Source: Candidatus Cloacimonadota bacterium (GTDB lineage: Bacteria > Cloacimonadota > Cloacimonadia > Cloacimonadales > JAMOQM01). Taken from it: a stretch of 43,661 bases of DNA. The stretch lies in contig JAMOQM010000085.1 in assembly GCA_027064005.1 (NCBI GenBank), positions 1 through 43,661 on the forward strand, given 5' to 3'. The notes beneath the pieces were generated by a model that was given only the letters and a program-made list of their open reading frames with translations, was not told where the DNA came from and did not search any database. Positions within the stretch are counted from its first letter, which is position 1. The number at the start of each line of letters is the position of its first letter. The position numbers and the translations under genes were made by a program. Positions 32,533 to 37,568 of the stretch are shown here, in pieces.

Positions 32533-32898
32533 ATGAAAAAGAAATTGAAACTTTGCCCGGTATGTGGAATGGAATTGGTTATTACTAAATATAACTGTCC
32601 AAATTGTAACACATCAATTGAAGGTCATTTCCAAATTGATGATTTTGCAAATCTAACGGAAGAACAATTAAATTTCATTAAAGTATTTATTTGTTGCCAA
32701 GGAAACATCAAAGAAGTTGAAAAAGAATTAAATATTTCTTATCCAACCGTAAAAAACAAATTACAAACAATCAAAACAAAAATATGTCCAAATTCAATGA
32801 CCGAATATGAGATAATTTTAAACGATTTAGAAGATTTGGAAAAGGGAAATATTGATGCAGAAGATTTATTAGTAAAACTACAAAACAGGAGGAAGTAA
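32533..32898 (+). CDS. DUF2089-family regulator with zinc ribbon and HTH (121 aa)
   Basis: An N-terminal zinc ribbon (LCPVCGMELVITKYNCPNCN, Cys8/Cys11 and Cys22/Cys25 or so) is followed by a helix-turn-helix with LTEEQLNFIKVFICCQGNIKEVEKELNISYPTVKNKL. This is the DUF2089 layout, often encoded with DUF4097 or LiaX/YvlB-like genes. The downstream gene overlaps it by one base and is of that type, so it probably regulates that gene. The C-terminal ~25 residues (IDAEDLLVKLQNRRK) resemble a short SHOCT-like helix pair. Start ATG has AAGGAG 6 bases upstream. Confidence 0.85.
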   Translation: MKKKLKLCPVCGMELVITKYNCPNCNTSIEGHFQIDDFANLTEEQLNFIKVFICCQGNIKEVEKELNISYPTVKNKLQTIKTKICPNSMTEYEIILNDLEDLEKGNIDAEDLLVKLQNRRK

Positions 32899-34292
32899 TG
32901 CAAGAACAGACAAAAGGAATCATCCTTATTGAAACCAAACCGAACCTAAAATTTAAACTCACTGCGGAATCAATCCCAATTAAAATTAAAGGAACAGATG
33001 AAAATTCGGTCCAAATGAGTTTTCAAAATCACAACAATGAAAACACATCTTTTGAGAAAATCAAGGGAAATGTGAATTATTCTTATAATGAAGAAAACAA
33101 CGCCTTAACTTTAGAAATTGAAGACCAAGATTCTATGATGGAAGGAATTTCACTTAATTTGAAAATCCCGAAACAAACCGAAATGAAAATTAAGACAGAA
33201 AATTCTCCAATTCAATTAAAATACTTAGAAGGATTTCAACAAATAAAATGTGAAAATAGTCCAATTACCGCCAAAGAAATTAACGGTCAAATCATAGTTT
33301 CAACTGAGAATGGACCAATAAATTTAAGAAAATGTACCGGTAATTTTGACATTAATTCAGAGAACGCTCCCATAAATATTGAAGAATCAACCGGAGAGAA
33401 TTTCAAAATCGAAACAGAGAATGGTCCAATAAATTTACGAAAATGCACAGGTAATTTTTTCATAAAATCAGAGAACGGTCCCATAAAACTTGAAGAATCA
33501 ATTGGGGATAATTATAAAATTGAAACAGAAAACGGAGGAGTTAAATCAAAAACAAATTCCTTCCTCAGCGGAAATATCAAATGCGAAAATGGTAAGATCT
33601 TATTTGATACATCTAAAACCAAAGAAGGAAATTTCTCATTAGAATCCAGCAATGGAAATACAGTCATAATTGTCAACAAAGATAAAAAAATCAATTTAGA
33701 CGCCCAAACTAATTATGGTGCTTTAAATATTGATTTAGATGGAAAGATTACGAAAAATTCTACCAATGATAAAAAAAATATCAAGGTAGAGCAAGAAAAT
33801 GCTAAAATCAATATCTCAGCAAAAAGCGAATATGGTGCAATCTCAACAAATGAAGATGAAAATTTCTCTTTTTCATTTGATTCAAACAATTTTAAAAGCT
33901 ATATAAATGGATATATGAAAATGGTGCATAATTTAATTGGTAATGAACATCTAAAAGATTTCGTGAACGTATTCTCCGCAAAAGAAAATAAGGCTAAAGA
34001 TAAAACAAAAGAAAAAGTCAGCAAAATAGTCATCAAAGTAAAAGATGAAATCGAAAAGAATCTCCCCAATAAAAAGATAATTATTGATGGGAAAGACATT
34101 TCTCAAGCTATTAAAGATAAATTAGAGAAAGTTACAGAAAAGTTGCAAAAAGAGGAGAAACAACCTGAAAAAGTCGAAGAACCTTCATCAGGAGAAAATT
34201 TCAGTGAGGCAAGAATGAAAATATTGCAGATGCTGGATGAAAAGAAAATTACGGTAGAACAGGCAGTCAAATTATTAGATGCTTTAAAATAA
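32898..34292 (+). CDS. DUF4097-type beta-helix protein with C-terminal SHOCT-like helices (464 aa)
   Basis: No signal peptide, so it is probably cytosolic or membrane-associated. Residues ~60-330 consist of short beta strands with repeated ENGPI/ENSPI units, as in DUF4097 (putative adhesin) proteins. An almost identical 37-residue block containing ENGPINLRKCTGNF occurs twice (33306 and 33417). The C-terminal part is Lys/Glu-rich, with a final SHOCT-like motif EARMKILQMLDEKKITVEQA followed by KLLDALK. This pairing resembles Firmicute YvlB/LiaX, which sense cell-envelope stress, but with the domains in opposite order. It overlaps the DUF2089 gene by one base. Confidence 0.8.
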   Translation: MQEQTKGIILIETKPNLKFKLTAESIPIKIKGTDENSVQMSFQNHNNENTSFEKIKGNVNYSYNEENNALTLEIEDQDSMMEGISLNLKIPKQTEMKIKTENSPIQLKYLEGFQQIKCENSPITAKEINGQIIVSTENGPINLRKCTGNFDINSENAPINIEESTGENFKIETENGPINLRKCTGNFFIKSENGPIKLEESIGDNYKIETENGGVKSKTNSFLSGNIKCENGKILFDTSKTKEGNFSLESSNGNTVIIVNKDKKINLDAQTNYGALNIDLDGKITKNSTNDKKNIKVEQENAKINISAKSEYGAISTNEDENFSFSFDSNNFKSYINGYMKMVHNLIGNEHLKDFVNVFSAKENKAKDKTKEKVSKIVIKVKDEIEKNLPNKKIIIDGKDISQAIKDKLEKVTEKLQKEEKQPEKVEEPSSGENFSEARMKILQMLDEKKITVEQAVKLLDALK

Positions 34293-34299
34293 AAATGGA

Positions 34300-34325
34300 A
34301 AGGTAGAGTTAAAAAACTCTACCTT
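34300..34325. terminator. bidirectional terminator between convergent genes
   Basis: The perfect stem AAGGTAGAGTT / AACTCTACCTT with an AAAA loop lies between the DUF4097 gene (stop 34292) and the antiporter gene (stop 34336) and has T/A-rich flanks on both sides. Confidence 0.85.
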
Positions 34326-34335
34326 AATTTAATAT

Positions 34336-35538
34336 CTAATTGTTTCGTTCGCCGGCTTTTGTAATTGCATAACGCGTTAAAAGCGGACCAACAATCTCAG
34401 TAATAATAGTTGTAAAAAGAAGGACATTTATCACAATCTCTGCCAATTCATTTCCTTGCGGACCGTATTGACCACCGCCAAACATTTTACCAACTAAAAT
34501 CGCAAGAGCCACTGCCACACCAACTTGGGGAATTAATCCCATTCCGGTATATTTTCTAACAACGGTTGGTGCTTTTCCTAAGATAGCTCCGAGAGTTGCA
34601 CCTCCCAATTTTCCGGCCGCACGTAATAAAGTATAAACCAAACCCATTACTCCGACAACAGGCAGTAATTTTATGTCTAATCTCGCTCCGGCAAGGATAA
34701 AGAAAAATGCATAAAGCAGAGGTCCGATAGAAGTGGTAATTGTTGATAAAGCCCGATTATCAAAAATAGGATTCAAATTAACCAAAGCCGAACCAAAAGC
34801 CATAATCGACAATAATTCCGAGAAATGGAATTGCTTGCTCAAACCGATAATTAATAAAATTGCAGTTGCAACTCTTATCAAAACTTGATCAGGACTTCTT
34901 AATTTTCTAAAGAAAAGATTAACCAAATAGGCAATAACAATACCGATTGTAACGGCAATAATTATTTCAACAACCGGATGTATCAAAATTTTAGCAACGG
35001 AAAGAGTTCCGCCTTTGATAAGTACTTTTGCTACTGAAACGGAAAACGAAAATATTATCAGAGATATGGCATCATCAATTCCAACCACGGCAAGAATTGT
35101 CGAGGTTAACGGACCTTTTGCTTTATATTGATTTAGAACAACAACCGTAGCTGCCGGAGCTGTAGCAGAAGCAACCGCACCCAAAACCAAAGCCTGATAT
35201 AATTTATCCGGATACATAAAATACATTCCGATACTCACTAATAAAAAGGCTCCAAATGCTTCAAAAAAAACAATGAAAAATATTGATTTACCTAGTTTTT
35301 GAAACACTGATTTTTTTAATTCCGAACCGATTGTAAATGCAATCGCACCGAGAGCCAAATCGTTCAGTATATCTACATCATTAATAAATTGTTGGCTAAA
35401 CAGACCAACCATGGATTTTCCGAAGATCACACCCAATAAAACATATCCGACAACAATTGGCAAATTCAACTTATTTGTAATTCTGTAAGCAAAAATTGCC
35501 AAAACAAGGGCAAGGCTTAGAATTAAAATATTATTCAT
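34336..35538 (-). CDS. CPA2 cation/proton antiporter, copy 2 (400 aa)
   Basis: KefB/GerN-type Na+(K+)/H+ antiporter with about 12 hydrophobic helices. Signatures are VVGYVLLGVIFGKSMVG, the discontinuous-helix region GAVASATAPAATVVVLNQYK, the ion-binding AVVGIDDAISLIIFS (adjacent Asp pair), and a C-terminal LLFTTIITEIVGPLLTRYA. There is no RCK/TrkA-N domain at the C-terminus, unlike KefB/KefC. It is ~60% identical by eye to the antiporter two genes upstream and separated from it by a PII-like gene. The start ATG has AAGGTCG. It is the last gene of the module. Confidence 0.9.
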   Translation of the reverse strand: MNNILILSLALVLAIFAYRITNKLNLPIVVGYVLLGVIFGKSMVGLFSQQFINDVDILNDLALGAIAFTIGSELKKSVFQKLGKSIFFIVFFEAFGAFLLVSIGMYFMYPDKLYQALVLGAVASATAPAATVVVLNQYKAKGPLTSTILAVVGIDDAISLIIFSFSVSVAKVLIKGGTLSVAKILIHPVVEIIIAVTIGIVIAYLVNLFFRKLRSPDQVLIRVATAILLIIGLSKQFHFSELLSIMAFGSALVNLNPIFDNRALSTITTSIGPLLYAFFFILAGARLDIKLLPVVGVMGLVYTLLRAAGKLGGATLGAILGKAPTVVRKYTGMGLIPQVGVAVALAILVGKMFGGGQYGPQGNELAEIVINVLLFTTIITEIVGPLLTRYAITKAGERNN

Positions 35539-35547
35539 AATTCGACC

Positions 35548-35898
35548 TTAATTTTCTGAATGCCAATCAGTATTCTCATCCACAACCATAACAGCCGGGA
35601 TTACAACTAAACGTCCCACTCCTTCTTCTCTAAAATCAATATCGGCATCATCAAAAACTTCAGACAAGGCATCAATCCTATCCATAGAATCGATCGTAGT
35701 TGTTACAATTTTACAATATCTTGATGATGTGCTGTCATGAGGAATTAACCCCGTGAAAAGAGGGATATGTTGATTCAAAACATTATCGGAATTTATGCCG
35801 TCAACAATGGTTCCATTGTCAATTCCGACCGTCGTTAAAGCTAACATAATATCATCTAAATATTCTTCTTTAAAAACTTGTATGATTACATAATACAT
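35548..35898 (-). CDS. PII-like signalling protein (116 aa)
   Basis: A small protein of the ferredoxin-like PII/CutA fold: strand 1 MYYVIIQVFKEEYLDDIMLA, a variable loop rich in Asn/Asp (SDNVLNQHIPLFTGLIPH), the core strand YCKIVTTTIDSMDRIDALSE and a last strand VGRLVVIPAVMVVDE. The uridylylation T-loop of GlnB is not conserved, so this is a PII-like protein of another class (such as those linked to bicarbonate or cation transport). It lies between two CPA2 antiporters, 9 bases from one and 21 from the other, and very likely regulates them. The ligand is unknown. Confidence 0.72.
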   Translation of the reverse strand: MYYVIIQVFKEEYLDDIMLALTTVGIDNGTIVDGINSDNVLNQHIPLFTGLIPHDSTSSRYCKIVTTTIDSMDRIDALSEVFDDADIDFREEGVGRLVVIPAVMVVDENTDWHSEN

Positions 35899-35919
35899 TT
35901 TTATCTCCTCTATTTTTTG

Positions 35920-37119
35920 TTAATTATTCTGTTCGCCTGCTTTAATAATGGCATATCTGGTTAATAACGGACCTACTATTTCGGTAATTATTGTTGTAAA
36001 TAAAAGAATATTCAGAACAATTTTCGAAAGCATTTTCCCTGCTTCGCCATAATCTCCCATTCCGAATATTTTATTAACAACAATGGCCAATCCTACTGCA
36101 ACACCTAATTGTGGTAATAAACCTAATCCTACATATTTTCTAACTTTTAGCGGTGCTTTCCCTAAAGTTGCTCCGATGCTTCCACCTGCATATTTCCCTA
36201 GACCACGGGCTAAAGTATAGAATAATCCCATTAAGCCGATCGTTTTGAATAGAGATAAATCTAAATTAGCTCCGGCTAAAATAAAAAACAGGGCGTAGAA
36301 AATAGGTTCGAAATGTTTTACTATTCCCGTTGATCGATTTGTTAAAATTGGATTTATATTAACCAATGTTGCGGCATAAGCCATAATTGAAAGCAATTCT
36401 GAAACATCAAGAAGATTACTTAAACCGAGCAAAATTGCTATAACAGCTGCTACCCGGATGCTTAATTTTTCAGGATTCCTTATTTTTTTGAAAAAGATAT
36501 TGCTCAGGAATGCAAAAGAAATACCTAATGCCAAAGCAATAGAAATTTCAATGACAGGATGAACAATTACTTTGATAATTGATAAATGTGCTCCACTCAT
36601 CAGAGATTTAGCAAAGGTGGCAGCAAAAGCGAATATTATCAGCGACATTGCATCGTCAATTCCAACCACAGCCAAGATAGTTGAAGTCAGAGGTCCTTTA
36701 GCTTTATATTGTTGAATCACTGCAATTGTTGCTGCCGGAGCTGTTGCTGAAGCCATTGCTCCGAGAATAATTGCTTGATACAATTTATCAGGATTAAGGA
36801 AATACATTGTCAATGTTACAAAAACAAAAGCTAAGCTCGCTTCAAAAAATACAATGAAAAATATTGATTTCCCCAATTTCACAAAGAGAGATTTCTTTAA
36901 CTCTGCTCCAATTGTAAATGCCATTAATCCCAAAGCGAAATCGTTTATAATTGCGGTATTATTGATAAAGTCAGCACTAAAAACTCCAATCACTGATTTT
37001 CCGAAAAGTACACCGAAAACCACATAACCTACAACAACCGGCAATTTTAATTTTTCGGCAACTAGTTCTCCAAGAATAGCAACAGCTAAAACTATTCCGA
37101 TCATTAAAACAGTGTTCAT
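35920..37119 (-). CDS. CPA2 cation/proton antiporter, copy 1 (399 aa)
   Basis: Same family and length as the other copy: VVGYVVFGVLFGKSVIG, GAMASATAPAATIAVIQQYK, the Asp pair in AVVGIDDAMSLIIFA and LLFTTIITEIVGPLLTRYA. Again no RCK domain. Compared with copy 2, the central helix after the Asp pair and the loop HPVIEISIALALGI differ most. It overlaps the EIIA gene by 4 bases (ATGA), so translation is coupled. Two antiporters in one operon could form a heterodimer, since CPA2 proteins work as dimers. Confidence 0.9.
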   Translation of the reverse strand: MNTVLMIGIVLAVAILGELVAEKLKLPVVVGYVVFGVLFGKSVIGVFSADFINNTAIINDFALGLMAFTIGAELKKSLFVKLGKSIFFIVFFEASLAFVFVTLTMYFLNPDKLYQAIILGAMASATAPAATIAVIQQYKAKGPLTSTILAVVGIDDAMSLIIFAFAATFAKSLMSGAHLSIIKVIVHPVIEISIALALGISFAFLSNIFFKKIRNPEKLSIRVAAVIAILLGLSNLLDVSELLSIMAYAATLVNINPILTNRSTGIVKHFEPIFYALFFILAGANLDLSLFKTIGLMGLFYTLARGLGKYAGGSIGATLGKAPLKVRKYVGLGLLPQLGVAVGLAIVVNKIFGMGDYGEAGKMLSKIVLNILLFTTIITEIVGPLLTRYAIIKAGEQNN

Positions 37120-37568
37120 ATCAATTTAAAAACCTCATAAACATCATCAATATTGTTAGCACTAAGTAATTTTTCTCTTTTCTTTTTACTCTTCAAAATC
37201 AATGCTACTTTTGCCAGTACTCGAAGATATTCTTTTTGTTGGCTTTCGTTTGCCGCAATCATAACAATAAAAGAAACAGGTTTTCCATCTAAAGCATCAT
37301 ATTCTATGCTATCTTTAGCAATTCCGATAGAAATTACAATATCTTTGATATATTTACTTCTTGCGTGAGGTATGGCGATTCCCAGTCCGATACCGGTACT
37401 CATAATTGACTCTCTTTCCCAGATATCTTTTATAAACTTATCTTTGTTTTCAACGTTATCTGATTTAGAAATCATTTCAGCCAATTTGTTAATAATTTCT
37501 TTTTTTTCACTACCTTTTTCAAAGATCTTAATTCGATCTTTTGAAATAAATTCAGATACTTTAATCAT
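37116..37568 (-). CDS. PTS EIIA-type (fructose/nitrogen) regulatory protein (150 aa)
   Basis: I start at ATG 37568, with GGAGGA 3-4 bases upstream; the longer frame to 37625 would cover the ribosome site. It is a PTS_EIIA_2 domain (PtsN/FruA-type): KKEIINKLAEMI, RESIMSTGIGLGIAIPHARS with the phospho-accepting His68, and the helix QKEYLRVLAKVALILKSKKK. No EI, HPr or EIIB/C is nearby, so it is unlikely to serve sugar uptake here. PtsN is known to control K+ transport and kinases in other bacteria, and here it is translationally coupled to a cation antiporter. It is the first gene of the module. Confidence 0.87.
   Translation of the reverse strand: MIKVSEFISKDRIKIFEKGSEKKEIINKLAEMISKSDNVENKDKFIKDIWERESIMSTGIGLGIAIPHARSKYIKDIVISIGIAKDSIEYDALDGKPVSFIVMIAANESQQKEYLRVLAKVALILKSKKKREKLLSANNIDDVYEVFKLI

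Follow-up and report, generated by a model that had tools for sequence, protein, structure and literature searches.

Why would two cation/proton antiporters be encoded together with a component of the phosphotransferase system (PTS) and a protein of PII-like fold? This question is raised by positions 34336-37568 of a 43,661-nucleotide stretch of DNA from a Candidatus Cloacimonadota bacterium, referred to here in its whole length as the window (contig 85 of a source genome of 2.40 Mb, which is in 153 contigs and 100% complete). On the minus strand of this region the genes for an enzyme IIA (EIIA), a first antiporter (antiporter a), a PII-like protein and a second antiporter (antiporter c) follow each other in this order. 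We propose that, with good probability, the EIIA and the PII-like protein serve as dedicated regulatory subunits for antiporters lacking a cytosolic domain of their own, and that two inputs thereby set antiport. This proposal is based on the fusion of EIIA and PII-like domains in relatives, on the joint use of the two with two unrelated antiporter types and on an intact phosphorylation site.

The four genes, their strand and a 4-base overlap had been listed in a preliminary description of this DNA and were found as listed. The EIIA gene starts with ATG, with GGAGG upstream, and its stop shares the four bases ATGA (37116-37119) with the start of antiporter a; gaps of 21 bases between antiporter a and the PII-like gene and of 9 bases between the latter and antiporter c follow. 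Judged by this layout, the four genes form one minus-strand operon. The features referred to below are:

37116..37568, minus strand: EIIA, PTS EIIA type 2 (fructose/PtsN class), 150 aa (PF00359, 2.6e-37)
37365-37367, minus strand: predicted phospho-acceptor His68 of the EIIA (conserved column in module EIIA domains)
35920..37119, minus strand: antiporter a, NapA-like PF00999, 399 aa (Pfam, 8.5e-34)
36652-36657 and 36193-36195, minus strand: ion-site residues Asp155-Asp156 and Lys309 of antiporter a
35548..35898, minus strand: PII-like protein, 116 aa (AlphaFold2 fold and structure search)
35755-35763, minus strand: Pro46-x-Phe48 motif of the PII-like protein, in the long loop joining strand 2 to strand 3 (family conservation)
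34336..35538, minus strand: antiporter c, NapA-like PF00999, 400 aa, paralogue of antiporter a (Pfam, 2.3e-35)
34300-34325, minus strand: 11-pair hairpin, then a T-rich stretch (pattern scan, consensus match only)

The gene neighbourhood was compared across 124 genomes of the phylum. Relatives of the window PII-like protein were found in 73 of these, in 43 of the 70 genomes of good quality and in 37 of 50 genera, with at most three copies per genome, nearly all of them with their own module. Open reading frames (ORFs) around the matches were typed with EIIA, antiporter and PII-like profiles, which gave 123 PII-like genes in 119 loci; three further matches (L052, L058 and L063), unrecovered by ORF calling owing to a stop codon or a competing ORF, stand outside the 123. 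A module was counted as complete when an antiporter and an EIIA were located no more than three genes away on the same strand, or were fused. By this definition a NapA-like antiporter and an EIIA are both adjacent or fused in the case of 113 of the 123 genes, so that the association itself is conserved in relatives and a chance neighbourhood can be rejected; a NapA-like antiporter alone lies within three genes or in the same chain in 115 cases. Among the remaining ten genes, two have only the antiporter, seven only the EIIA and one neither, and seven of the ten meet a contig end on the side of the missing gene (L045, L046, L049, L123, L149, L163 and L164). Two other exceptions are placed inside a Mrp (mnh) Na+/H+ antiporter cluster (L081:3507-8123, G056:C10; L089:2615-7184, G060:C60), where the EIIA and PII-like genes sit between MnhE-F-G-MbhD and MnhB-C-D; here the same two regulators accompany an unrelated antiporter type. 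The tenth exception, L075, falls under neither explanation.

EIIA and PII-like domain are joined in one chain in 80 of the 123 genes, in 59 genomes, 31 genera and 8 families. Stand-alone PII-like proteins occur in 43 genomes (the record of L043 included) and both forms in 28. The commonest arrangement is an antiporter followed by a fused EIIA-PII-like gene (62 loci, 23 genera); EIIA-antiporter-PII-like is found at 29 loci in 14 genera and EIIA-PII-like-antiporter at five. The four-gene order with paired antiporters, which had been expected to be the conserved unit, is restricted to the window and one other locus (L090) out of 119. One 568-aa frame (L136:647, G062:C105) reads antiporter-EIIA-PII-like; its antiporter is short by about 110 C-terminal residues, possibly through a deletion or an assembly error, and it was therefore given no weight as a triple fusion, though it is still counted among the 80 fused and 113 complete cases. 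One relative (L043) came from a scan of genome contigs, and a search of viral contigs returned none. A plasmid search with the fused EIIA-PII-like protein gave 57 records, in each of which less than 80% of the query was covered; in the ten matches listed, the alignment breaks off at the end of the EIIA half or shortly beyond it, and no fusion is seen.

The identification of the PII-like protein depends on fold and profile comparison rather than on family models. Pfam and NCBIfam gave no match for the window protein, and searches of PDB sequences, both with the single sequence and with a profile, gave chance matches only. At the gathering score of PF00543 there was no match for it, and three of 41 relatives gave weak matches, the best at an E-value of 0.076. 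The Pfam P-II model also gives weak matches (about 5e-4, below the cut-off) to the fused domain of two genomes, G116 and G119, and to a comparable frame of G123. The possibility that it belongs to a known family was thus rejected, as only the comparison of folds and of profiles succeeded. An AlphaFold2 model, built from two sequences (the window protein and that of L043), has the order b1-a1-b2-loop-b3-a2-b4, which is the ferredoxin-like arrangement of the PII superfamily with its long loop behind strand 2, with a predicted local distance difference test score (pLDDT) of 72 and a predicted template modelling score of 0.64. In a Foldseek search with this model, all 50 matches listed (PDB chains, E-value at most 0.001) were structures of the PII family, and in VIA-align the best match was CPII of Thiomonas (Z 10.4 over 86 residues, root mean square deviation 4.2), followed by PotN, SbtB and PII proteins. 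Independently of the model, a profile of 121 of the 123 domains (rows of fewer than 85 residues excluded) aligned with a PII profile with an hhalign score of 30.3 across 92 columns, compared with a maximum of 17.1 for 200 column-shuffled profiles and of 11.3 for blocks of the EIIA and antiporter profiles. Despite the lack of Pfam or NCBIfam support, the earlier PII-like call is therefore upheld by the model, the structure search and the profile comparison against shuffled controls.

A conserved feature of this protein is the Pro-x-Phe of its long loop: Pro46 is kept in 43/43 stand-alone and 78/78 fused domains, and Phe48 in 43/43 and 99%, respectively. In PII proteins, the long loop after strand 2 is the target-binding T-loop (PMC10117731). 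Canonical P-II proteins exceed the cut-off in only three of the 124 genomes; in one of these two canonical PII genes lie immediately before a gene for a nitrogenase-like component (L104:351-1069, G023:C81).

The EIIA is readily recognized (PF00359, EIIA_2: 128.4 bits against a gathering score of 27). It had been assigned to the PtsN kind, which holds in so far as the closest solved structures are PtsN proteins; however, it scores below the NCBIfam cut-off of the PtsN equivalog TIGR01419 (76.4 against 138.7 bits) and above that of the fructose-type IIA model TIGR00848 (110.2 against 103.5 bits). The predicted phospho-acceptor histidine is present in all 127 module EIIA domains having that column, the other three of 130 rows being truncated, which argues that phosphorylation matters.

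A likely phosphate donor for this histidine is encoded in the same genome. HPr was detected in 114 of the 124 genomes and an enzyme I (EI)-type C domain in 119, the latter number being an upper bound for EI because the family also covers other enzymes using phosphoenolpyruvate (PEP). On contig 25 of the source genome (L176:992-8254) rpoN, hpf, hprK and the genes for HPr and EI form a cluster, and the His and Ser sites of the HPr are visible in its sequence. Comparable clusters, in which ptsK/EI(R) is linked to rpoN, have been described for lineages mostly without PTS transporters (PMC2405797). No HPr or EI gene had been noted near the operon. However, HPr, EI and HPr kinase are encoded together on another contig, so that a missing relay is no reason to suppose that the EIIA acts unphosphorylated, and an EIIA without a phosphate donor was rejected. 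PTS sugar permeases, as judged by the EIIC families PF02378, PF13303, PF03609 and PF03611, were each above the cut-off in none of the 124 genomes, with PF13303 being a weak test since it is above the cut-off in none of 14 control genomes either; fragments below the threshold were seen for PF13303 in one genome and for PF03611 in three.

The two antiporters of the window are paralogues that share 61% identity across 399 aa, so that the term near-duplicate previously used for them is generous. A profile of 30 module antiporters matched Thermus NapA first among PDB entries (1.6e-45, nearly full length); a single-sequence search with the window antiporter gave no match among PDB sequences. Both proteins missed the cut-off of the CPA2 subfamily model TIGR00932 (49.7 and 61.8 bits against 238.3), which is still the best NCBIfam model for them. 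In readable rows of the stand-alone group, Asp155, Asp156 and Lys309 are each conserved in 41/41 sequences, and in the fused group the corresponding counts are 65/67, 67/67 and 68/72. An aspartate pair with a lysine is what we take to be the mark of NapA-type Na+/H+ antiport, and the cation would accordingly be Na+ rather than K+. It had also been suggested that the antiporters lack a C-terminal RCK domain, and indeed a regulatory tail is absent from 107 full-length module antiporters: after the transmembrane part, 106 have 17 residues or fewer and the longest tail has 43. In a tree, antiporter a is placed outside a group of antiporter c with the antiporters of L043 and L044 (97/90), which makes the duplication in the window an old one, and the L090 pair is placed elsewhere, joined weakly (91/52) and on long branches, so that these are probably two separate duplications. 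Occurring at two of 119 loci, and with the two pairs set apart in the tree, the duplication of the antiporters was rejected as the main point of this locus.

All four PF00999 antiporters of the source genome are linked to an EIIA, and this genome contains several further arrangements. A second module on contig 14 (L098:2099-4539) is composed of a PF00999 antiporter, a CBS-domain protein and a fused EIIA-PII-like protein, and on contig 132 an antiporter-EIIA fusion of 577 aa without a PII-like domain is encoded (L099:6165-7898; also L154:263, G121:C82). On contig 9, the gene for a ClC chloride channel with CBS domains is immediately preceded by that for a close paralogue of the window EIIA (L101:1304-3565), and contig 31 encodes an amino-acid permease of 610 aa with a C-terminal EIIA domain (L103:2398-4230). 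In the window itself, a DUF2089 regulator gene overlaps that of a DUF4097/SHOCT protein with internal repeats (32533-34292, plus strand), convergent with the antiporter operon; the hairpin at 34300-34325 is likely the terminator of the operon and perhaps bidirectional.

With the association found in 113 and the fusion of the regulators in 80 of the 123 cases, two separate regulatory subunits on one transporter, as the preliminary description had supposed, are the best explanation of this locus. Binding, ligand, stoichiometry, the sign of regulation and Na+ as the transported ion are what we infer within it. In such a system, the conserved EIIA histidine would take its phosphate from the EI-HPr relay of the cell. 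As this relay appears to have no sugar permease to serve, the phosphorylation state of the EIIA could report the status of PEP/pyruvate and of HPr kinase. By analogy with PtsN and YcgO, unphosphorylated EIIA may be the inhibitory form. The PII-like protein is expected to be a trimer that docks on the antiporter from the cytosolic side, as in GlnK-AmtB and SbtB-SbtA, using the long loop in which Pro-x-Phe is invariant. It may also bind a small molecule, for which an adenine nucleotide or cyclic di-AMP (c-di-AMP) would be our best guess. The two regulators could then jointly set the rate of antiport from two inputs. A diadenylate cyclase was detected in 110 of the 124 genomes, including the source genome; however, none was found in G051, which has a four-gene module, and c-di-AMP as the ligand is therefore still a guess.

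Several points weigh against this proposal. The AlphaFold2 model of the PII-like protein is based on two sequences and has a pLDDT of 72. The residues that we take to be the canonical ATP/2-oxoglutarate ligands of PII, namely Gln39, the Gly-x-Gly-Lys of the B-loop and Arg101/Arg103, are not conserved in the PII-like domains: within an uncertain loop alignment the B-loop is shortened, its lysine position is K or R in about 65% of the stand-alone proteins and most often F, S, Y or G in the fused ones, and the C-terminal arginines are absent, the stand-alone chains ending soon after strand 4. Nucleotide binding may hence be lost, and the altered pocket weakens both adenine nucleotides and c-di-AMP as candidates. 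In addition, an EIIA-PII-like pair without an adjoining antiporter is present at L075:4372-5150 (G106:C136), in a genome without any PF00999 match, which indicates that the pair can exist without such a partner. Finally, 51 of the 124 genomes have no match to the PII-like protein and 107 have PF00999 antiporters, so that many antiporters of the phylum must manage without it.

The alternative that survives best, although we regard it as rather unlikely, is that only the EIIA contacts the antiporter and that the target of the PII-like protein is the EIIA, whose phosphorylation by HPr it might gate, in which case the fused protein would, with the same doubt attached, be a ligand-gated phospho-switch. 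This would fit the frequent fusion of the two regulators as well as the antiporter-EIIA fusions without a PII-like domain (L099 and L154), and no credible chain unites an antiporter with both regulators. However, at 29 loci as well as in the window and at L090 the antiporter gene lies between those of the EIIA and the PII-like protein, and the Pro-x-Phe loop is as invariant as would be expected of a docking loop, whichever its partner. A second alternative is that the PII-like protein is a regulator of nitrogen or carbon metabolism which replaces GlnB and has many targets, its proximity to antiporter genes reflecting incidental co-regulation. The scarcity of canonical P-II, by which the phylum lacks the usual PII protein, speaks for this; nevertheless we think it very improbable in view of the association with an antiporter and an EIIA, in which most exceptions are explained, of the two unrelated antiporter types that PII-like genes adjoin, and of the presence of up to three copies per genome, nearly every one in its own module. 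That the EIIA is instead a phosphorylation-independent stoichiometric sensor and that the functional novelty lies in the duplication, giving an antiporter heterodimer with differing ion affinities, agrees with the two antiporter genes in the window and at L090 but is very unlikely, given that the histidine is kept in 127/127 domains and that a stand-alone PII-like gene is flanked by two antiporter genes at only two of 119 loci, whose pairs are apart in the tree.

The regulatory-subunit reading has parallels in several known systems. In the GlnK-AmtB complex, the long T-loop is the part by which a PII trimer docks onto the transporter from the cytosolic side, and the GlnK chain of this complex (2ns1) is among the Foldseek matches listed; in contrast to GlnK, the module protein has neither a P-II family score nor the canonical ligand residues, no Amt is involved, and its target and ligand would be different ones. 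Thermus NapA shares with the module antiporters the full-length profile match, the aspartate pair with the lysine and the absence of a cytosolic domain; to our knowledge, NapA has no EIIA or PII-like partners. The closest precedent for the EIIA is found in Escherichia coli, where unphosphorylated PtsN binds and inhibits the K+/H+ antiporter YcgO and the phosphorylation state decides binding (PMC11808508). Common to both systems are an EIIA of the same class tied to a cation/proton antiporter and a permease-free relay of the EI-HPr type. However, YcgO is a CPA1 protein in which a cytosolic region of 195 residues with CorC/RCK parts is the place where PtsN binds, whereas the module antiporters end at the membrane domain, their operon also includes the EIIA gene, and a PII-like partner joins them as a separate or fused protein. 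SbtB, which binds SbtA (PMC13249358) and regulates a bicarbonate transporter, and CPII likewise are small PII-fold proteins tied to a transporter, with CPII being the best structural match and SbtB close behind. Here, the transporter is a cation/proton antiporter and not a bicarbonate transporter, an EIIA accompanies it, and the module protein has neither the canonical nucleotide-pocket residues nor an evident SbtB-like C-terminal redox loop. PII-NG of Geobacter and Proteobacteria likewise shares an operon with a cation exporter driven by protons; there, however, the transporter is CzcABC, PII-NG is placed in PF00543 and an EIIA does not appear (PMC7726332). Lastly, LacS is a secondary transporter under the control of a fused, PTS-phosphorylated EIIA-Glc-like domain, but it is a sugar transporter with an EIIA of the glucose class and without a PII-like part (PMC10710835).

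Links between PtsN and antiporters and between PII-like proteins and transporters have been found separately in the literature searched (including PMC6516651, PMC7726332, PMC7349511, PMC10710835, PMC13249358, PMC10117731 and PMC13104625). A description of an EIIA and a PII-like protein together, or fused, with an antiporter was not found in the literature covered by our search, outside which most subscription journals lie. A wider formulation, in which EIIA and PII-like protein would be a portable two-input control unit for NapA-like and Mrp cation/proton antiporters, the PII part would be a new clade that lost the canonical ligand site and was joined, often covalently, to a PTS phospho-switch, and the carbon and energy state would directly set the sodium or proton gradient, seems to us as well supported as it is open to doubt; the same holds for its corollary, that a PEP relay and a PII fold have been turned to ion homeostasis in a phylum where PTS sugar permeases were not found and canonical PII is nearly absent.

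The PII-like proteins described here would constitute a new and unnamed clade of the PII superfamily, the ligand of which is open to assay, and the EIIA-PII-like fusion would allow contact and signal integration to be tested with one purified protein. PtsN-YcgO is the one biochemical case in which the PTS is known to control an antiporter, and a few cases are known in which a PII protein controls a transporter. Under the reading favoured here, EI-HPr relays would have a role in bacteria that lack PTS permeases. If it is true, both types of control would converge on a single transporter through a fused protein, and provide a direct molecular link between the carbon and energy state and the ion gradient by which anaerobic life is powered.

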